From the NCBI GenBank assembly GCA_021813435.1, contig JAKAKR010000009.1, forward strand, positions 1 to 47,319: DNA of 47,319 nucleotides, read 5' to 3'. This stretch comes from Nanobdellota archaeon. GTDB lineage: Archaea > Nanobdellota > Nanobdellia > Woesearchaeales > UBA9642. Made by a program: the position numbers and the translations under genes. How positions within the stretch are numbered: the stretch's first letter is position 1; every line of letters starts with the position of its first letter. This document shows, in pieces, positions 1,463 through 37,704 of this stretch. The notes beneath the pieces were generated by a model, which was not told the origin of the DNA, searched no databases, and saw only the letters and a program-made list of their open reading frames with translations.

Positions 1463-4330
1463 ATGAATACTAAAAATCTAGTGTTTCTCGCATTGCTCAT
1501 ATTCGCATTACTCTTAATCCATCCTGTGAGCGCAGGCGCGAGCTGCACCACGAGCTATTATAATGTCTGTGGAAATAACATCACGTGCAGTGCAATCATC
1601 AGTTCCCCAACATCATACGATGCTTCATGGGTAACATATTGCAATAACTCCTGCCCCGCATGCCCTACAGCACAGGAGGGGACTTCAAACTTTGGATGCC
1701 AATCTGCTGCTCCGACAAATGGGTATAGTACTGATTCTTATGTGTGCGCAGGAAGTACAATATGCACATTCTGCAACACTAGCTACACCAAATCAGGTAA
1801 TGCATGTGTTAAATCATGCTCAGGAACCCCCAGTACCAAAAGCTGTGGAACCTGCGGCACCACGACACAGGTCTGTGTTGGTGGAACCTGGACATACACC
1901 GGCGCAACCTGCACTGCAACAGGAACAACACAAACACTTTCCTGCACTGCAAATAGCTGTTCAGGAACACTCACCAGCACCTGCACGCTGCAAAGCGGAA
2001 ATTATAATTGGGTCAATGATACCTGCAGTGCGGCATCACTCACACTCTGCGGCGATGGAGTCTGCCGCGCATCATGCACCTACTGCGGTGACAATACCAC
2101 GCAGACACCAAACAATAATGGATTCAATGAAGTCTGTGATGGCACTGATCTTAATAGTCAGACCTGCGCATCCCAGGGCTATGGTTCGGGTACATTAAGT
2201 TGTAAATCTGATTGCTCAGGATTCAACTACTCCGGCTGCTCTGCTGTTGGATGTGATGCTTCCTGCAACGGTCTATGGGGACCATCATGCAATAATGGCC
2301 TTAGCTGTAATGGGTGGAACGTTGTTTCAAATGGAAGTTGCCGTAATTCTTTATGCACAGCGCAATCAAATTGTAATTGTTGCGGCAATAATATTAATGA
2401 TTCTGCTGCTGGTGAAGAATGCGATGATGGCAACACTAATAATGGTGATGGTTGTGATAGCACTTGTCATAAGACTAATTGTGCTATTACCAGCGTCAAT
2501 GTTACGCCGATTGATTGCAGTGGGCAATTATGCACTCAAGGAGAGCATTTGAATGTGTCTATAGCATATTCTGGTGTTGATTGTGCACTTGGTAAGACAC
2601 TCCAAGTTGATTTGTTGCCTAACACCACCTATGCTTCATCCTCTTGTGTTATTGAAAAAAATCTGACTATTGACCAAGTATCACAGGGTTTGACTGTGTT
2701 TATGCCTGGCATGTCGAGCTCTTCTTTTATTAGTGATGCAAGCCATTCTTACTCATTTATCTATACTGTCCCGACAATACCCAACCCTAAATGCACAGGA
2801 AAGAATTTTTATCACACTATTGTAGGTTTATATTCTGCTGATGGCGTATTGCGGCTTAATGATTATACTTCACAGGATGTTTCAGGTATAATGTTTACTG
2901 TTTGCCCGCAGGCAGGTACTGTAATTCCTTATCCTTCAAGCACTAATAAATTATTTGATGCTGTTTATACTAATCCGGGAAAGACTTGGTCTGGTTGTCT
3001 TTTCGCTTGCGTCAATGGATGGGCATCAAATACTGAATATGTAAATAATGCGAGTGGAAAAGGAATTAAGTATGGCCCGTATTTTACATATTATTGTGGT
3101 GCTTTAGATGGCGTCTGTCCAGATAGTTTTAGTTCTAATTATGCTTCAGGATTTAAGTGTAGGTTACAAGGTTCACAATATGGTGTCTGCTCAGGAAATG
3201 GTATCAGCGATCCTGACTGTGGTCCTGTCTGTGGCGATGGCATTGTGACGCCGCCAGAAGAATGTGACTACAATCTTACGCCAAATGGATGCTCGCATGA
3301 ATGCTATAAGAACAATTGTACGATTAATACTACTAACCCAATCACTATCACGCCTATCGGATGCGACAAGGGATTATGCAATATTGGAAGCGCGCTCAAT
3401 ATCACCGTACGATTCAATGGTTCGGACTGCGCGCTTGCAAACACTGTCCAGGTAGACTTTAGAAACGAACCCAATGTCAATATCACGAGCTGTATCATCA
3501 ACAGCACAGGCGGAACAGGCGGGATGTATGGAATGAGTTCTCTACTTCCTGTTGCATTCTCATCGCAGGATACCTTTACTTATACTATCAATGCAATCAC
3601 TGAGGCATGCAGTGGAAAAGCCCTCAGGTTTGCAACACCACAACTCTATACCATCACTGGCGGAAAGACAATCCTGCGCAGTACCCTGCAGGAAGCCCCG
3701 ACAGATTCTATTACGCTCTACACTGATGATTGCAGAAATATCTGTCCTGAAGCGTACAATCTTTCACAACTCTCTGAGTCCACGGGAAAAACCGTCGATG
3801 AACTATTGAAATTAGGCAATGCGCAGGCAGAGGCATTATTCACACAATACGTGCATAATGAGCGCTGCTTCAAGAGAAGTGTAAGGAACCTGCGCAACAC
3901 TTCGTGTGAATTCACTTCACCGGATCAATCTACAGGGCTCGTCTCATTCCTTTGGAATAATATTAAAGGCGATAAAGGGACCCGAAGAAACAAGGACGAA
4001 ACCAACGGACAAGCAAGTAGTGGCGCGACTACTGACACGATTACACCATGCAATAATGGCGTATTGGATTCTTCAGAATACTGCGACGCAAACCCGAATG
4101 GGAAATACATTTCAAAAGATACTACGGGTGATTGCAGAACACTCTTTACTACAGGAACACACAAGATATTTTCAACACTGGACACCACAGCACAGGCTGT
4201 CTGCGCAAGTAACTGCCTCTATGCTACCTGCACAATCATTGATCCCATGACCCAAAGTACCAAAACATTTAAATTATCATGGGATTATACTGCAAGTACA
4301 AGGACTGTTACTGAGGTTCCCAGCTCATAA
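1463..4330 (+). CDS. Large exported Cys-rich protein with two paralogous modules
   Basis: A 955-aa protein with a clear signal peptide (MNTKNLVFLALLIFALLL, cleavage near residues 24-26). Residues 27-300 are a dense Cys-rich region. Two modules follow. Each begins with a Cys-rich repeat (CCGNNINDSAAGEECDDGN at about 307; CGDGIVTPPEECD at about 590) like the DUF4215/myxococcal Cys-rich repeats. Each continues into a beta-rich domain with matching signatures (VTPIDCSGQLC and SGVDCALGKTLQVD against ITPIGCDKGLC and NGSDCALANTVQVD). The C-terminal part has more Cys but no membrane anchor or sorting motif. It is probably extracellular and disulfide-bonded, perhaps an adhesin or surface layer component; no enzyme motif is seen. 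It is followed 27 nt later by a small anchored protein of similar type. Confidence 0.85.
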   Translation: MNTKNLVFLALLIFALLLIHPVSAGASCTTSYYNVCGNNITCSAIISSPTSYDASWVTYCNNSCPACPTAQEGTSNFGCQSAAPTNGYSTDSYVCAGSTICTFCNTSYTKSGNACVKSCSGTPSTKSCGTCGTTTQVCVGGTWTYTGATCTATGTTQTLSCTANSCSGTLTSTCTLQSGNYNWVNDTCSAASLTLCGDGVCRASCTYCGDNTTQTPNNNGFNEVCDGTDLNSQTCASQGYGSGTLSCKSDCSGFNYSGCSAVGCDASCNGLWGPSCNNGLSCNGWNVVSNGSCRNSLCTAQSNCNCCGNNINDSAAGEECDDGNTNNGDGCDSTCHKTNCAITSVNVTPIDCSGQLCTQGEHLNVSIAYSGVDCALGKTLQVDLLPNTTYASSSCVIEKNLTIDQVSQGLTVFMPGMSSSSFISDASHSYSFIYTVPTIPNPKCTGKNFYHTIVGLYSADGVLRLNDYTSQDVSGIMFTVCPQAGTVIPYPSSTNKLFDAVYTNPGKTWSGCLFACVNGWASNTEYVNNASGKGIKYGPYFTYYCGALDGVCPDSFSSNYASGFKCRLQGSQYGVCSGNGISDPDCGPVCGDGIVTPPEECDYNLTPNGCSHECYKNNCTINTTNPITITPIGCDKGLCNIGSALNITVRFNGSDCALANTVQVDFRNEPNVNITSCIINSTGGTGGMYGMSSLLPVAFSSQDTFTYTINAITEACSGKALRFATPQLYTITGGKTILRSTLQEAPTDSITLYTDDCRNICPEAYNLSQLSESTGKTVDELLKLGNAQAEALFTQYVHNERCFKRSVRNLRNTSCEFTSPDQSTGLVSFLWNNIKGDKGTRRNKDETNGQASSGATTDTITPCNNGVLDSSEYCDANPNGKYISKDTTGDCRTLFTTGTHKIFSTLDTTAQAVCASNCLYATCTIIDPMTQSTKTFKLSWDYTASTRTVTEVPSS

Positions 4331-29202: not shown

Positions 29203-30444
29203 TTACTCGTATCTCAATGCATCGACAGGCTTTAATTTTGATGCGCGATACGCAGGGATTGCGCCGGCAATCATCCCGATGGCAACTGAGATGAGTATGG
29301 CCTCGATGAGTAGGTTTGTCGGGACAACTGTTGTGATGTTGCCGATGCCGCCGATCCGTCCGAGAAGATTGGGCAGGATTGATGAGATGATAACGCCAAG
29401 GCCGATCCCGATGAGTCCTCCGACAAGTCCCACAAGGCCTGAATTCAAGAGAAAGATGATTATGATGTCACGGTTCTTTGCGCCGATAGCCTTCATGACG
29501 CCGATCTCCTTGGTCTTCTCGAGAACTGAAGTGAACATGGTATTGGCGATGCCGACTGCGCCGACCAGGAGCGAGACTGCAGCGATTGCCGCAAGAAAGA
29601 GCGTGAATGTCTGCGTCACGCTCTGGATGCTTTGCTGTGTCGCCTCTGCAGAAGTCACGGTATAATCCTTGGTCTTGCCAATGACATGTCGCGAGATTGC
29701 AAGACGCGCATCAGTCTCATTTGCAATGACCATTGCCTGCGAGGAATCCGCGACCTTGAACACAATAGAATCATACTTGTTCTCGCCGACTCTTCCCAGG
29801 ATTGTGCGCGCATCTTTTACAGTCATGAATATCCTATTATCATCGCCGCCAAACCCGCCGGATGATTCAAGGATCCCGACAATCTTATAGACTGTCCCGT
29901 TAATGGTGATGCCCTGGTTGACTGCAAGCGCCTGTTTGAATGTTGTCTGCGCCACACGGCTTCCGAGGACCACAACACCTGTGTCTGAACTTTCCAGAAG
30001 TCTTCCGGATGCAAGCGGTGTCGTCATCATATTGCTCCAGGCAAGCGGGTCAACACCCTGGATATTAAGGTTTGCAGTCTCTGCAAGATAACTGACACTT
30101 GCCCTTCCGGAAACGATGCCATCGACGAATAATACGCCGTCGACATTTCTTATGACCTGTACATCATTGGTCGTAAGATTATTGGTAACAATCGAGCTTT
30201 CGCGATCCATACCCCGTCCGAATCCTCCGCCTGACGCGCGTTGGAATCCAGGCGTTACAGTGACCTGGTCTGCGCCAAGTCCGCCGAGTCGCGACTGGAG
30301 GCTTACCTGCGCTCCCTCACCAATAGAGATGATTGCGACAATTGCTGCAACACCGATGACAATGCCGATAATGGTGAGCCAGCTGCGCAGCTTACTATGG
30401 ATGAGGATGTTTACTGCAAGTTTGAATGATTTTTGGATTCTCAT
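29203..30444 (-). CDS. MacB/FtsX-type ABC transporter permease
   Basis: A 413-aa protein with the MacB layout. An N-terminal helix follows LAVNILIHSKLRSWLTIIGI (the typical first block). A large exterior MacB_PCD domain (about 45-270) includes GFQRASGGGFGRGMDRESS. Three C-terminal membrane helices form the FtsX domain with VGAVGIANTMF and EIGVMKAIGAKNRDI. Such permeases transmit ATP-driven mechanical force across the membrane instead of moving substrate through a pore. It lies 63 nt after the CARDB protein gene and forms a transporter with the ATPase at 31922. Confidence 0.93.
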   Translation of the reverse strand: MRIQKSFKLAVNILIHSKLRSWLTIIGIVIGVAAIVAIISIGEGAQVSLQSRLGGLGADQVTVTPGFQRASGGGFGRGMDRESSIVTNNLTTNDVQVIRNVDGVLFVDGIVSGRASVSYLAETANLNIQGVDPLAWSNMMTTPLASGRLLESSDTGVVVLGSRVAQTTFKQALAVNQGITINGTVYKIVGILESSGGFGGDDNRIFMTVKDARTILGRVGENKYDSIVFKVADSSQAMVIANETDARLAISRHVIGKTKDYTVTSAEATQQSIQSVTQTFTLFLAAIAAVSLLVGAVGIANTMFTSVLEKTKEIGVMKAIGAKNRDIIIIFLLNSGLVGLVGGLIGIGLGVIISSILPNLLGRIGGIGNITTVVPTNLLIEAILISVAIGMIAGAIPAYRASKLKPVDALRYE

Positions 30445-30507: not shown

Positions 30508-31929
30508 TTACTTTTTTGGATTCTTTGATGCGACGACAGCGTTTTTCTTCTCATTCTTTTTGTAGAAGAAAAATCCTGTACCTACAACAATGACGATAAG
30601 GATGATCCAGAATGTCGTGCTTCCAAAAAATCCAGTGGACGCGCTTGTCCGGCCATAACCTGTTCCAGTGCCGGTGCTGTTAAAATTTCTGAACTGGATC
30701 GGCACAACTTTTTCTATGGTGATGCGCTTTCCGGTCGTATCAGTATACGAGACATCGACAATAAGTCCGTCGAGAGGTCCACTTCCTCCTGCATTGGTTC
30801 TGTTCTGCATGCGATAATTCTGGTATTGCGCTGTCTGTGCAGGATTTTGCGTGCCATTCTGTAATCGACGGGTGTAATTGCCGCCATCAGTTCGTGGAGT
30901 GATCTGGAATGAGACTAAAGTATAATCTCCCTTGTTGAGATTTCCAATAATTGCCGAGCCGCTTCCGCTGACCTGGAAATTCTGTTGCGGCGGGATGCTG
31001 ACTGACACGGATTGCGCTGGAGTGTTTCCGATGTTTGAGACTGAAAGCGATGTCTGTCCCTGACTGCTCTGGGAGAACACCACATCAAAATCTGTTTCTC
31101 CGCCGACAAAGATTCCGGACTGTGTCGATATGCTTGACGCAGTGGTATTGTCGCCGGTAGATTCAAAATTAAGGTTAAGATTCAATTTATAGAGTCCGGG
31201 ATTTGCATTCACATCAGCGATCGCAACAAACGAGAGCGTGGTTGATTGTCCTGCATCAAGATACCGGATATATTGTGAATTGCCTGAATAGACCGGGAGT
31301 ATGACGCCAGTCGGTTCCTGCCAGGAAAAGACAAGGTTCTGGAGTGGCGCGCTTCCGACATTAGTGATGGTGAAATTGAGTGGAGTCTCAGCACCTGGCT
31401 GGATGTGCGCCTGGTTGACATAACTGATTTGGGCAAATTCCTTGTTCTCGACATTGATGTTAAAACTTAGTGTAGTCCAGGTGCCGCCATTATACCGGTA
31501 CTGGAATCGCAAGGGATAGGATTGTTGCAAAACATTCTTGTCGATCTGCACACTGAACTGCACATTTGCGGCATTCGTTCCGGTCTGATATGCGGCAAGT
31601 GTCGGAATGGTTTGTGTTGCATTCGCGCCGACAGTTGCGAACGGGTAATCATCGACAATACGAAGTTCAAGATTGCTTGCAGGTTGTCCACCCTGATTTT
31701 CGATCTGGAATAATAATTTCATGACATCGCCTGCACGTGCAGGAGTCGGATTCTGGTTGAGCAGCGTCACGCTGATTGCCGGGGAATCCGTGACATCAGC
31801 ACGCACCATGCTGATGAATGCGAATGCCAATACGACAACAGTCAGTAGGAATACTGCTATCTTGGTTGCGCGCTGCGCAATGCCGGTATGTTTGACCAGT
31901 ATATTTTTTTGTTGTTTCATCTTATTCAC
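30508..31929 (-). CDS. CARDB/COG1361-like exported protein of the ABC operon
   Basis: A 473-aa protein with an N-terminal signal or anchor (about residues 20-43). At least three Ig-like CARDB repeats follow (NPTPARAGDVMKLLFQIENQG; FTITNVGSAPLQNLVFSW; LSVSNIGNTPAQSVSVSIP), then a Gly/Thr-rich linker and a C-terminal transmembrane helix (FWIILIVIVVGTGFFFY) with a Lys-rich cytoplasmic tail. COG1361-type proteins are exterior, surface-layer-like. It sits between the ATPase (8-nt overlap) and permease genes, which suggests it is the exterior partner of this MacB-type system, perhaps binding the ligand or substrate. Confidence 0.88.
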   Translation of the reverse strand: MNKMKQQKNILVKHTGIAQRATKIAVFLLTVVVLAFAFISMVRADVTDSPAISVTLLNQNPTPARAGDVMKLLFQIENQGGQPASNLELRIVDDYPFATVGANATQTIPTLAAYQTGTNAANVQFSVQIDKNVLQQSYPLRFQYRYNGGTWTTLSFNINVENKEFAQISYVNQAHIQPGAETPLNFTITNVGSAPLQNLVFSWQEPTGVILPVYSGNSQYIRYLDAGQSTTLSFVAIADVNANPGLYKLNLNLNFESTGDNTTASSISTQSGIFVGGETDFDVVFSQSSQGQTSLSVSNIGNTPAQSVSVSIPPQQNFQVSGSGSAIIGNLNKGDYTLVSFQITPRTDGGNYTRRLQNGTQNPAQTAQYQNYRMQNRTNAGGSGPLDGLIVDVSYTDTTGKRITIEKVVPIQFRNFNSTGTGTGYGRTSASTGFFGSTTFWIILIVIVVGTGFFFYKKNEKKNAVVASKNPKK

Positions 31930-32605
31930 CCTTGACGATCTTTCCGTCTTTTAATCGTATCCTTCGCTCAGCGTGTTCTGCAAGATTCATATCATGCGTG
32001 ACCATGATGATGGTCTTTCCTTCACGCTTCCATAATCGTTCGAGTAATGCCATGACCTCTGTTCCTGAACTCGTATCAAGGTTCCCTGTAGGCTCATCTG
32101 CAAGGATCACTTCAGGATCATTTGATAATGCGCGGGCAATAGCGACACGCTGCTGCTGTCCGCCGGATAATTGCGATGGGAGGTGATGCATACGATCAGA
32201 AAGTCCGACAATCTCAAGGAGTGCGATTGCCTTCTTGCGCGCTTCACCTGCAGGAGTGTCCTGGAATTCAAGAGGGAGCATGACATTTTCAAGCGCAGTA
32301 AGGTTAGGGATGAGATTGAACTGCTGGAATATGAACCCGATCTTTTGCCCGCGGATCTGCGCAAGGGTCGATTCTGAGAGCTTTGCAATGTCCTTGCCGT
32401 CAAGAAAGATGACTCCGCGCGTAGGCAGGTCAAGACATCCGACAAGATTCATCATGGTGCTCTTTCCTGAACCGCTTGATCCGACAATGGCGACAAACTC
32501 ACCCTTGGTGATATGGACATCGACACCCTGGAGCGCATTGACCTCTACCTCACCCATGGAATACACTTTCCAAACGTCGGTTAATTGTATGACAGTCTGT
32601 TTCAT
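31922..32605 (-). CDS. MacB/LolD-type ABC transporter ATPase
   Basis: A 227-aa nucleotide-binding subunit. Walker A is GSSGSGKST (42-50), Q-loop FIFQQFNL, signature LSGGQ (146-150), Walker B VILADE (166-171), D-loop GNLD, and H-switch His204. LVGCLDLPTRG and the short length are typical of the LolD/MacB group. It pairs with the permease at 29203. Its ATG overlaps the stop of the upstream membrane protein gene by 4 nt, and it overlaps the CARDB gene by 8 nt. Confidence 0.96.
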   Translation of the reverse strand: MKQTVIQLTDVWKVYSMGEVEVNALQGVDVHITKGEFVAIVGSSGSGKSTMMNLVGCLDLPTRGVIFLDGKDIAKLSESTLAQIRGQKIGFIFQQFNLIPNLTALENVMLPLEFQDTPAGEARKKAIALLEIVGLSDRMHHLPSQLSGGQQQRVAIARALSNDPEVILADEPTGNLDTSSGTEVMALLERLWKREGKTIIMVTHDMNLAEHAERRIRLKDGKIVKGE

Positions 32606-33036
32606 GGTCTTGCGGCAAATGGTTCCCTTAAATCCGGGCCACGTTCAGGGTCGCGGCTATGATCAAGTCCATCATAGAATTGCATCTCTATATGCATGAG
32701 TATCTTTCCGGTTTGGACATCAATAATATAATTGTGTTTGATGGATGGCGCAGAGAACGTCACCTCAATAGTCTGTGTTGTCGTATGGTTGAGCGGGATG
32801 CTGCGGATATGATCAGAGACCTTTACAGTGTAGGCGGTCGCATTGATCCCCTGGGTTTGCAAGTCGCTTTCTGCGATGGATTTGGCATACGCAATCTGTT
32901 CCGGCGTTGCGATAGCGGCCTTGGATCGGTAATGATACGCGCGCCATATCCCTAAGATGATGATTGCAACAAAGATAATGATAAATATGAATGCAATGGT
33001 TTTCCAGATATTTCTTTTCTTTTTTGCCATGGTCAT
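32602..33036 (-). CDS. Single-pass membrane protein with PepSY-like exterior domain
   Basis: About 144 aa with one transmembrane helix near the N-terminus (about 16-36, AFIFIIIFVAIIILGIW). The exterior domain has SIAESDLQTQGINATAYTVKVS and HNYIIDVQTGKILMHIEMQF, the latter resembling the end of PepSY domains. It is the first gene of the ABC operon and overlaps the ATPase start by 4 nt. The open frame extends to 33123, but ATG 33034-33036 (or the ATG two codons on) is chosen because of GAGG just upstream and a TATA box (ACTATATATACT, about 33088-33101) that puts transcription near 33069. Confidence 0.72.
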   Translation of the reverse strand: MTMAKKKRNIWKTIAFIFIIIFVAIIILGIWRAYHYRSKAAIATPEQIAYAKSIAESDLQTQGINATAYTVKVSDHIRSIPLNHTTTQTIEVTFSAPSIKHNYIIDVQTGKILMHIEMQFYDGLDHSRDPERGPDLREPFAARP

Positions 33037-33087: not shown

Positions 33088-33190
33088 TGCAGTATATATA
33101 GTAAAGAGAAGATGTAACAACATATAGATATTTCCTGAAACCGTTTCATTTTAGTGAAACAACTTCATCGCTATAATAACATTTAAATAA
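33088..33190. promoter_or_regulatory. Divergent promoters with three-half-site operator (33136-33160)
   Basis: Three alternating half-sites are seen: TGAAAC (33136-33141), GTTTCA (33143-33148) and TGAAAC (33155-33160). The first two make the perfect palindrome TGAAACCGTTTCA; the last two make GTTTCA-N6-TGAAAC. They lie between the minus-strand TATA of the ABC operon (33088-33101) and the plus-strand TATA (CATTTAAATAAT, 33179-33190) of the membrane-bound winged-helix gene. The site is about 35 bp from the first TATA box and 20 bp from the second, so one bound protein could control both directions. Confidence 0.7.
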
Positions 33191-33210: not shown

Positions 33211-33717
33211 ATGAGACGGTTCACTGTCCTTATCGCGATGGTACTCCTTGTCGCATCCATTGTATTCTTGGTCTATCTCTTATTCAATCCGCAACCGATC
33301 CAGATTGTTCTTGAAACCGGACAGGAAATCACGACAAAAAGCCCTGATTATTTTACCATCACGACTGCCATGATCCTTATCACCTGCTCATTCATCATCG
33401 GCGCATCGATCATGTACCTCTATTATAATGCAGATGCCGCAACAGTAATCACCCGGCACACTGCATCAGAGCATAAGGTCGAAGGACATACCCCTGGCGC
33501 GTACGATCTTATCATCCCTCTTTTGCGTGATGATGAGAAAAAAGCAGTGCATATCATCAAGGAACATCACGGGGAGATGCTCCAGAACGAACTCGTCCTC
33601 AAATTAGGGATATCAAAAGTCAAGACCACGCGCATCCTTGCAAGTCTTGAGCGAAAACAAGTCATTACCAAACATCGGCATGGGATGACGAACAGCATCA
33701 AACTGAAACATGTGTAA
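33211..33717 (+). CDS. Membrane-anchored winged-helix transcription regulator (COG2512-like)
   Basis: A 168-aa protein with two transmembrane helices (about 4-25 and 43-65) enclosing a short exterior loop, a linker, and a C-terminal winged helix: DDEKKAVHIIKEHHGEMLQNELVLKLGISKVKTTRILASLERKQVITKHRHGMTNSIKL (described in pieces: recognition helix region SKVKTTRIL, wing KHRHGMTN). This is the layout of archaeal COG2512 membrane regulators. ATG 33211 is chosen over ATG 33190 because the TATA box lies 26 nt upstream of it and ATG 33190 falls at the box itself. Divergent from the ABC operon with an operator between. Confidence 0.85.
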   Translation: MRRFTVLIAMVLLVASIVFLVYLLFNPQPIQIVLETGQEITTKSPDYFTITTAMILITCSFIIGASIMYLYYNADAATVITRHTASEHKVEGHTPGAYDLIIPLLRDDEKKAVHIIKEHHGEMLQNELVLKLGISKVKTTRILASLERKQVITKHRHGMTNSIKLKHV

Positions 33718-34415: not shown

Positions 34416-35087
34416 CTACCCTTCATGCACAATTGTTCGTTCCTTGAGATATTCCTTGTCAACACGCCACAGGATTGCGATGATTCCCAAAGCAAGAAGC
34501 GCGCCAAGGGTGTTTGCAAGCATATCCCACTGGTAATCATAGACAAGCATATCAGTCTGCAATTGAGTCGGAACCTCGATGCGTTGCAGGACTGTCCCGA
34601 TATCTGCTGCATAATCCCCCTCGCTGAGCATGGTTGCGCCAGTAAACTTCATATATTGCGATCCGACAAACTCAAGATTCTTTGCGACAGCGCCAATGCC
34701 AAGGACGATAAGGAATGCAGCCATTGCCTTTTTGACCGGGAATTTCTTTGCATGCGCAATAAGGAGATAGAATACGATGATAGTAATGGAGAGGCAATTG
34801 AGGAAATGGATATACTTGTCGTATCCAATGCCAAAGATGAGATATTCAAAGAATCCGAAAACAACGCCCATGAGATGGAAGAGGATGGGGACAAAGCCGA
34901 GCGCGACTGCAACCGGCGGCACATAATACTTGCGCTGCAAGAAATAGAATGCAACAATGATGACAAGCCCGCCAATACAGTCCTTGACAAAACCCGGCAC
35001 TGCAAATGCCGCATACACGCCAAATCCGATAGTGATGATTGCCATCACAAGAAACATGATGTTGATGGTCTTCTCATACTTGTGCAT
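34416..35087 (-). CDS. YjdF/DUF2238-like membrane protein, copy 1
   Basis: A 223-aa protein with about six transmembrane helices. Conserved family points: IGYDKYIHFLN, GAVAKNLEFVGSQY and YDYQWDMLANTLGALLAL. The D-K-x-x-H, E-F-x-G and D-x-x-W-D-M-x-x-N motifs, with charged residues at the membrane, resemble the DUF2238 (YjdF) family of unknown function. The usual ExNEF is KNLEF here. ATG 35087 is preferred to ATG 35102 because the TATA box (ATTTAAAT, 35110-35117) is 26 nt from it. It is one of three diverged copies in this region. Confidence 0.82.
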   Translation of the reverse strand: MHKYEKTINIMFLVMAIITIGFGVYAAFAVPGFVKDCIGGLVIIVAFYFLQRKYYVPPVAVALGFVPILFHLMGVVFGFFEYLIFGIGYDKYIHFLNCLSITIIVFYLLIAHAKKFPVKKAMAAFLIVLGIGAVAKNLEFVGSQYMKFTGATMLSEGDYAADIGTVLQRIEVPTQLQTDMLVYDYQWDMLANTLGALLALGIIAILWRVDKEYLKERTIVHEG

Positions 35088-35159
35088 AGGGTAGAGAAGC
35101 ATCCGTCACTATTTAAATTTTTGGAAAAATCAGCAAGCATAGCCTGCGCTCCTCGAAAA

Positions 35160-35852
35160 TTATACAATGACTTCCGGTTCTGCATCCTTGCTATGCGGGA
35201 TGACCTGGAAACTCCACAGGAGACTGATGAGAAGCAGCGCTGCAATTGATCCGCCAAGATTGAATATCATATCCCAGTACGAATCATACACCTGAAAGTC
35301 CTGTTTCAATTTTGAAAGTCCCTCAGGCATGAGGGGCTTGCCGATCCTGATGCCTTCCTGATACATCAAGGTATTCTCGAGATCGCCCTGGCTAAACATC
35401 GTCGGTCCAGTGACATTCAGGTATGTTGATCCCGCAAATTCGTTGATCTCATTGAATGATCCGAATCCAAGGGCGATAAGGAGCGCTGCAATGCCTTTCT
35501 TGATGGGATCGCGTTTCGAATGCGCAATTAATACAAAGAACACCACAAATGCTACGGCAAACGAATTGATGAAATGCGTATACTTGTCGTATCCAATGTC
35601 AAAAAACATCATGCTGAATAATCCTAGTACCACGCCGATGGTATGCAAGAATACCGGGATGAATCCGACGATAATGACCCCGGGCGGAAGGGGATAAGTC
35701 TCTTCGATAAGATAAAATGCTCCGATGAATGCAAGACCGAAGATGCAATCAATGACAAAGGGCTGTCCTTTGAGGATCGAGACAATGAGAAATATCAATT
35801 CAAGGATGAATGCGAAGATGAATAGTTCCCTGCTGGCTGAATGGTGTGTCAC
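35160..35852 (-). CDS. YjdF/DUF2238-like membrane protein, copy 2
   Basis: A 230-aa protein with about six helices. Motifs: IGYDKYTHFIN, GSFNEINEFAGSTY and DSYWDMIFNLGGSIAALLL. It has a longer loop (about 150-185, GDLENTLMYQEGIRIGKPLMP) before the last helix than the other copies. The start is GTG 35852, 26 nt from a TATA box (ATATAAAT, 35873-35880 on the minus strand), and likely leaderless. Its promoter is separate from copy 1 and from the glycosyltransferase. Confidence 0.82.
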   Translation of the reverse strand: MTHHSASRELFIFAFILELIFLIVSILKGQPFVIDCIFGLAFIGAFYLIEETYPLPPGVIIVGFIPVFLHTIGVVLGLFSMMFFDIGYDKYTHFINSFAVAFVVFFVLIAHSKRDPIKKGIAALLIALGFGSFNEINEFAGSTYLNVTGPTMFSQGDLENTLMYQEGIRIGKPLMPEGLSKLKQDFQVYDSYWDMIFNLGGSIAALLLISLLWSFQVIPHSKDAEPEVIV

Positions 35853-37080: not shown

Positions 37081-37704
37081 TTATTTTTTTACCTTCTGTT
37101 GTCTTATCCGATCCGCTACTGCGACAAGGAGTATGGCGCTTACTGATCCGAACGTATTAAAGATCATATCCCATTGGGTATCATAGCGTTGGAGATCCGC
37201 AGTGGATGGTGGAAGCTCATCGCCCATGCTAAACATCCCCGCATTGTTCTGGTGAAGATAGGCTGATCCTACGAATTCATTGATTTCATTGATCGCGCCA
37301 AGGCCGATAATGATAAGGACAACTGCAATCATCTTGAGTATGCGATGCGTCCTTTTCCTTGCAGTAAGCATGAAATAGAGGAGATAGGACGCGCAAAACG
37401 CGAAAAAGAAGTGGGCATACTTATCATAACCTATACCAAAAAGTGTGACGCCGAATAATCCGAAAACCCCTCCGAATGAGAGAAGGATTGGCAGAAATCC
37501 CACGATGATTGCATGGATCGGCGCCGGATACTTGCGCTCCACAACGTAAAATATGACAACAGCTATGGTCTCAAACAGGAAATCTGCGACAAACGCTGAT
37601 TTGAGAATGTAGGTGACTGCAAAGGTAATGATTGCGAATAAGAATGCGACAAGAAAAATGATGTTCTTATGCCTTCTGGCTTTTTTCTCTGACTCACGGA
37701 CCAT
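37081..37704 (-). CDS. YjdF/DUF2238-like membrane protein, copy 3
   Basis: A 207-aa protein with about six helices and the shortest of the three copies. Motifs: IGYDKYAHFFFAF, GAINEINEFVGSAY and DTQWDMIFNTFGSVSAILL; DTQWDM is closest to the bacterial YjdF consensus. Both ends are Lys/Arg-rich. It is followed 24 nt later by the glycosyltransferase and preceded by the tRNA-Ser locus. No clear TATA box is visible upstream. Confidence 0.83.
   Translation of the reverse strand: MVRESEKKARRHKNIIFLVAFLFAIITFAVTYILKSAFVADFLFETIAVVIFYVVERKYPAPIHAIIVGFLPILLSFGGVFGLFGVTLFGIGYDKYAHFFFAFCASYLLYFMLTARKRTHRILKMIAVVLIIIGLGAINEINEFVGSAYLHQNNAGMFSMGDELPPSTADLQRYDTQWDMIFNTFGSVSAILLVAVADRIRQQKVKK

Follow-up and report, generated by a model that had tools for sequence, protein, structure and literature searches.

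A conserved pattern of four repeats surrounds the start signal of a pump operon in the window (the whole stretch of 47,319 nucleotides analysed, contig C16 of the 1,411,830-base genome G000), and is very probably the binding place predicted for the membrane-anchored regulator encoded next to it, as part of a surface-responsive switch. As read from the sequence, the regulator is a DUF7343 one-component protein, predicted to bind the repeats and to control the divergent ABC/CARDB operon, more likely as a repressor; the probability assigned to this reading is about 75%. Gene regulation in DPANN archaea is little known. The repeats represent a well-supported candidate operator for a regulator of a family, DUF7343, without assigned function, and they lead to defined predictions of a DNA site, the operon under its control and a sensor in the membrane, as well as to a sequence signature usable to find similar surface-control modules in other uncultured archaea.

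Half-sites and promoter elements in the window

Positions 33136-33160 read TGAAAC c GTTTCA ttttag TGAAAC. The three half-sites described as an operator in the original prediction are exact, and the first two of them form a perfect palindrome of 13 bp around a single central base. The operator status is upheld by conservation in relatives; the count of three is not, as a fourth half-site, TGTAAC, has to be added at 33113-33118. The elements of the intergenic region are the following.

33113..33118, + strand: half-site 1, TGTAAC here (degenerate), TGAAAC in 11/12 relatives, just downstream of the ABC-operon TATA box (− strand)
33121..33135, − strand: TATA-like and BRE-like elements of the ABC/CARDB operon, framed at constant distance by half-sites 1 and 2
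33136..33141, + strand: half-site 2, TGAAAC here, mostly TGTAAC in relatives, abutting the ABC-operon BRE
33143..33148, − strand: half-site 3, GTTTCA, inverted, invariant across 13 aligned module loci
33155..33160, + strand: half-site 4, TGAAAC
33182..33189, + strand: regulator TATA box TTTAAATA, 29 bp upstream of the ATG at 33211

The three direct copies are spaced by 23 and 19 bp, and one copy is inverted. The palindrome made by half-sites 2 and 3 occurs once in the window and once in the 1.41-Mb genome. It was rejected as a functional unit, because most relatives feature TGTAAC-TG-GTTTCA, with a two-base centre. Half-sites 3 and 4 have the form TGGTTTCA-N6-TGAAACCA in several relatives.

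The half-sites had been placed between two divergent TATA boxes. This is correct for the TATA box of the regulator, which lies outside the repeats, and incorrect for that of the ABC operon: the TATA-like element CTATATG (− strand, 33121-33127) and the BRE-like GGAAA (33131-33135) belong to the interior of the operator, with half-site 1 on one side and half-site 2 on the other. Start-to-start, half-sites 1 and 2 are 22–23 bp apart in 13/13 aligned module loci, and between half-site 4 and the regulator TATA box relatives have anywhere from 7 to 118 bp. Because spacing to the ABC TATA box is fixed, and that to the regulator TATA box variable, the putative operator is best viewed as built into the ABC/CARDB promoter, its placement relative to the regulator promoter being loose. 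At one locus (L057) the regulator gene is located upstream of, and codirectional with, an operon in the order small protein, CARDB, permease, ATPase; the orientation of the operator follows the operon, not the regulator. This locus is an independent check of the predicted tie between operator and ABC/CARDB operon.

A larger regulon was searched for in the window's own genome by patterns and a sequence model, and none was found, the next operator-model match elsewhere having E=0.2. The same genome also carries a four-copy TGAAAC array of different layout near another DUF7343 regulator (L114, see below).

Conservation of operator and module in relatives

Orthologues of the regulator (E<1e-40) reside in 12/353 genomes of the order, the window's genome counted, and operator and divergent operon accompany all of them (11 besides the one in the window). 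The small-protein gene adjoins the regulator gene divergently in 12/12 loci, and, within the reach of the available flanks, that side also holds the ATPase and CARDB genes; the full five-gene set is visible with longer flanks from named genomes. Conservation of the half-sites and of the divergent gene pair in relatives, the test set in advance, was observed with all 12 orthologues, and this co-occurrence bears out the proposed coupling to a neighbouring membrane-bound wHTH protein in a self-contained divergent module. The relatives' loci are mostly labelled Candidatus Woesearchaeota, some Nanoarchaeota, Aenigmatarchaeota or 'Euryarchaeota'.

Alignment of the intergenic regions yields 22 invariant columns, which span at least 10 genera and fall nearly all inside one block, corresponding to the operator: GATGAAAC-aaCATATATAt-nTTTCC-TGtAAC-TG-GTTTCA-TTTTtg-TGAAAC-CA. 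Four half-sites are therefore recognized, and the composite operator in relatives can be written TGAAAC-N16/17-TGAAAC-N1/2-GTTTCA-N6-TGAAAC. A word as short as TGAAAC is often met in single copy, as would fit a chance pattern in an AT-rich promoter region. The probability of this is negligible, given columns invariant in at least 10 genera and the score of the window site under a four-half-site matrix derived from the 12 relatives with the window left out (37.5, whereas 100 shuffled versions of the window gave 24.5 at most).

A pattern search with half-sites 2–4 across the order found 12 sites, versus one with a reversed control pattern. Nine of them fall at the module; the remaining three, two of which belong to G249 and one to G019, accompany related-type gene pairs. 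The sequence model R1 has 14 matches at E<=1e-5, which are the 12 orthologues and two related pairs (G249, G019); the count is partly circular, as these very sites were included in building the model. No operator match at E<=1e-5 was found away from the module or related-type gene pairs in the 353 genomes of the order. In G249, the gene adjoining the operator site encodes a two-TM DUF7343 regulator (L084 and L090). The G019 contig carries an exported-protein gene of the same type as the G249 pairs; a regulator was looked for on this contig, and none was recognized. In a further genome (G307), found via the small protein, the operon lies at the edge of a contig, and a GTTTCA at base 21 is located where half-site 1 would be expected.

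The operator might be bound by another transcription factor encoded elsewhere, the neighbouring wHTH protein having a different target. This is improbable: regulator and operator co-occur in 12/12, model matches at E<=1e-5 are confined to such gene pairs, and TGAAAC arrays beside other two-TM DUF7343 regulators point to the DUF7343 family.

The module has a patchy distribution, being missing in three genomes of the same genus and present in several other families, which suggests horizontal transfer or repeated loss. In an Aenigmatarchaeota-labelled locus (L052), two operators about 350 bp apart (at about 5584 and 5905) are located between regulator and ABC operon, and apparently flank an inserted reading frame.

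The membrane-anchored regulator

33211..33717, + strand: regulator, made by a short N-terminus, TM1, an exterior hairpin of about 25 residues (NPQPIQIVLETGQEITT), TM2, and a C-terminal wHTH (PF24034, DUF7343)

Two membrane helices and a wHTH domain had been predicted, and this description is upheld. Residues 113-172 of the 175-residue reading match PF24034 (E=4.8e-14; 52.4 bits, versus a gathering threshold of 27.6). Scores with the MarR models PF01047 and PF12802, 19.0 and 20.5 bits, are below the gathering thresholds of 24.6 and 27. Two hydrophobic helices and the wHTH domain are conserved in 12/12 orthologues, so that the TM part and the DNA-binding domain share one chain. In the AlphaFold2 model, a hairpin (strands 31-33 and 39-41) connects two long helices, and the wHTH block has pLDDT 83–90; overall pTM is 0.41, and the mutual arrangement of the parts is therefore uncertain. 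The wHTH fold matches those of MarR, ArsR and CodY, the best PDB entries being the wHTH domains of CodY, AntR, HpaR, HlyU and MepR.

The orthologue alignment starts at the ATG at 33211, and a TTTAWATA-like box is found 29–30 bp before the ATG in most relatives. Alignment and TATA spacing indicate 33211, rather than 33190, as the likely start, and the regulator mRNA is predicted to be probably leaderless. The conserved block holds short inverted repeats, and one could see in it an RNA element, or a piece of an mRNA leader, instead of protein-binding DNA. This reading is very improbable and was rejected, as no Rfam match was found, the regulator mRNA predicted above would begin downstream of the block, and half-sites 2–4, being upstream of the ABC TATA box, fall outside both predicted transcripts.

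The divergent ABC/CARDB operon

32602..33030, − strand: small protein, first gene of the operon, with a single N-terminal TM and a helix-plus-sheet domain on the exterior
31922..32605, − strand: ABC ATPase of the MacB/LolD type (Pfam ABC_tran)
30508..31929, − strand: surface protein containing CARDB and NEW3-like repeats, with a signal/TM at the N-terminus and a TM at the C-terminus
29203..30444, − strand: permease of the MacB/FtsX type (Pfam MacB_PCD and FtsX)

The small-protein, ATPase and CARDB genes overlap by a few bases. The assignment of a MacB-type ATPase and permease and of a CARDB surface protein to this operon agrees with Pfam and NCBIfam matches. The surface protein scores 41.0 bits with CARDB (gathering threshold 22.7), in two stretches, and also matches NPCBM_assoc/NEW3; the permease scores 104.7 bits with MacB_PCD and 79.1 bits with FtsX. 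ATPase and permease score as MacB/LolD-like in NCBIfam, below the equivalog cut-offs.

The small protein had been called PepSY-like. This identity was rejected, as the protein has no PepSY match in Pfam, nor any other significant match to a known family, and a fold search in PDB gave nothing better than E=0.12. Its predicted structure (pLDDT 84.6) consists of one TM helix and a helix-and-sheet domain. Across loci, divergence of the regulator correlates most strongly with that of the small protein (r=0.59; 0 of 2000 permutations), followed by CARDB (0.44), ATPase (0.42) and permease (0.39), which suggests, from sequence divergence, a direct partnership between regulator and small anchored protein.

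A second relative of the small protein is encoded in the same genome (G000:C15:59099-59479; L195/L196); ABC/CARDB genes and TGAAAC half-sites are absent from its neighbourhood. Three similar multi-pass membrane proteins are encoded on the − strand of the window (34416-35102, 35160-35852 and 37081-37704). Two are adjacent, the third lies beyond a glycosyltransferase-like gene, and one weakly matches DUF2238/DUF2279; they are likely tandem paralogues.

Proposed mode of action and known systems

The regulator would sit in the membrane by its two helices, with the conserved beta-hairpin of about 25 residues outside, as a likely putative sensor, and the DUF7343 winged helix in the cytoplasm. The wHTH domain, probably as dimers or as a row of monomers, would read the TGAAAC half-sites, its predicted target being three direct copies about two helical turns apart and one inverted copy. 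The predicted sites flank the TATA/BRE of the divergent operon on both sides, and their occupancy would exclude TBP/TFB. Repression would be relieved once the exterior hairpin has sensed a signal or a partner; the small anchored protein is a possible partner. Envelope stress, named in the original prediction, would be a conjectural signal. The pairing of regulator and operator is favoured by sites that are exact and genome-unique, by co-occurrence, gene order and the fixed promoter geometry; it is weighed down by the degenerate half-site 1 in the window and by the many DUF7343 paralogues, the majority in the order, that have no TGAAAC array.

Sites on either side of TATA/BRE suggest promoter occlusion, and hence repression, which we infer to be the somewhat more probable mode of control of the ABC/CARDB operon. 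Proteins on half-sites 2–4, which lie directly upstream of the BRE, might alternatively bring TFB/TBP to the ABC operon, a mode of action put forward for ArnR and CsmR. ArnR activates from boxes upstream of the core promoter (PMC6396743), and CsmR sites upstream of BRE/TATA have been interpreted as activating (PMC13286277). Activation is possible and rather less probable, since half-site 1, downstream of the TATA box and kept at fixed spacing in relatives, would obstruct initiation.

By analogy, ArnR/ArnR1 of Sulfolobus may be regarded as the nearest described system to the repressor proposed here, in terms of mode of action. In S. acidocaldarius these are membrane-bound one-component activators of the archaellum (PMC6396743), and resemble the regulator in being archaeal one-component proteins with an HTH and two TM helices; they control surface-structure genes by way of a pair of inverted-repeat boxes close to the promoter, as the regulator is predicted to do through its repeats. 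In ArnR the HTH is N-terminal, the TMs are C-terminal, and a HAMP-like and sensor domain is also present; the boxes, TCGAC-N5-GTCGA, are upstream of the promoter (PMC6396743). In contrast, the regulator described here has N-terminal TMs, a C-terminal wHTH, a short exterior hairpin, and TGAAAC sites that bracket the TATA box. Domain order being opposite and half-site different, it falls outside the ArnR family. CsmR of Haloferax provides a comparison for operator placement (PMC13286277).

The predicted wHTH fold is of the MarR/ArsR type; unlike such proteins, the regulator has no soluble ligand domain, is anchored to the membrane by two helices, and is sub-threshold to the MarR Pfam models. Its C-terminal domain is above cut-off for PF24034, a Pfam family without assigned function, for which a DNA target and an operon are here predicted. 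ATPase and permease match MacB, LolD and FtsX models, but are far under the NCBIfam equivalog cut-offs and, in contrast to MacB/LolCDE/FtsX systems, are split, with the CARDB surface protein between. Searches of a literature library found no paper on DUF7343, none on Woesearchaeota regulators or operators of this kind, and none on membrane-bound wHTH proteins of Methanoperedens.

TGAAAC arrays in the wider DUF7343 family

Distant homologues of the regulator (n=21, about 30% identity; L058-L078) are found in Methanoperedens and relatives. At 13 of these loci there is a tripartite site whose spacers (1 and 6) are the same and which has 1–3 mismatches, always on the strand opposite to the regulator, and preceding either exported-protein genes or the regulator gene; the genomes searched have one to four operator-model matches each. 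The Methanoperedens block is longer, and half-site 1 is 12 bp further off. One reading frame is open in several loci and often meets stops soon past the block. The block was rejected as coding, a consistent gene being absent; it is probably non-coding, some coding contribution being still conceivable because of the open frame.

Direct pairs of TGAAAC at 19–24 bp are present in 4/64 upstream regions of other DUF7343 proteins (0.03 expected), and TGAAAC is the highest-ranked non-simple word when all 6-mers are compared in the 64 upstream regions from the order. Near paralogous two-TM DUF7343 regulators, direct repeats are spaced by 21–23 bp. TGAAAC was rejected as a code for all DUF7343 paralogues, as arrays mark only a subset of the 64 regions, most paralogues having none. 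All TGAAAC-associated proteins have similar recognition-helix residues (K-V/A/L-K/R-x-S/T/H-R), as do many without arrays, and exterior loops vary from group to group.

Tentatively, and with odds slightly under even, the TGAAAC code may denote a widespread class of archaeal membrane-anchored wHTH proteins, with differing exterior loops, a shared operator architecture and adjacent exported or anchored targets, comprising DUF7343 subgroups in Woesearchaeota, other DPANN lineages and Methanoperedens. If true, this would be an archaeal surface-sensing regulatory system recognizable by sequence.

In the window's genome, four exact TGAAAC copies at 22, 20 and 21 bp (L114, G000:C15:134500-140500, positions 3581-3649) are located upstream of an operon encoding a small exported protein, a small membrane protein and a two-TM DUF7343 regulator. 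Seven TGAAAC/GTTTCA copies are clustered in about 95 bp in G019 (L121, 1767-1860), and precede the gene of an exported protein whose type recurs in L084, L090 and L117. Two-TM DUF7343 paralogues in L116 (2574-3098), L118 (2343-2822) and L119 (941-1543) feature exterior loops with Cys, His and Met residues (examples are SCSHGPTCPMW and HAGCPHM); some regulators reside beside Met/His-rich exported proteins, and the three might sense metals.
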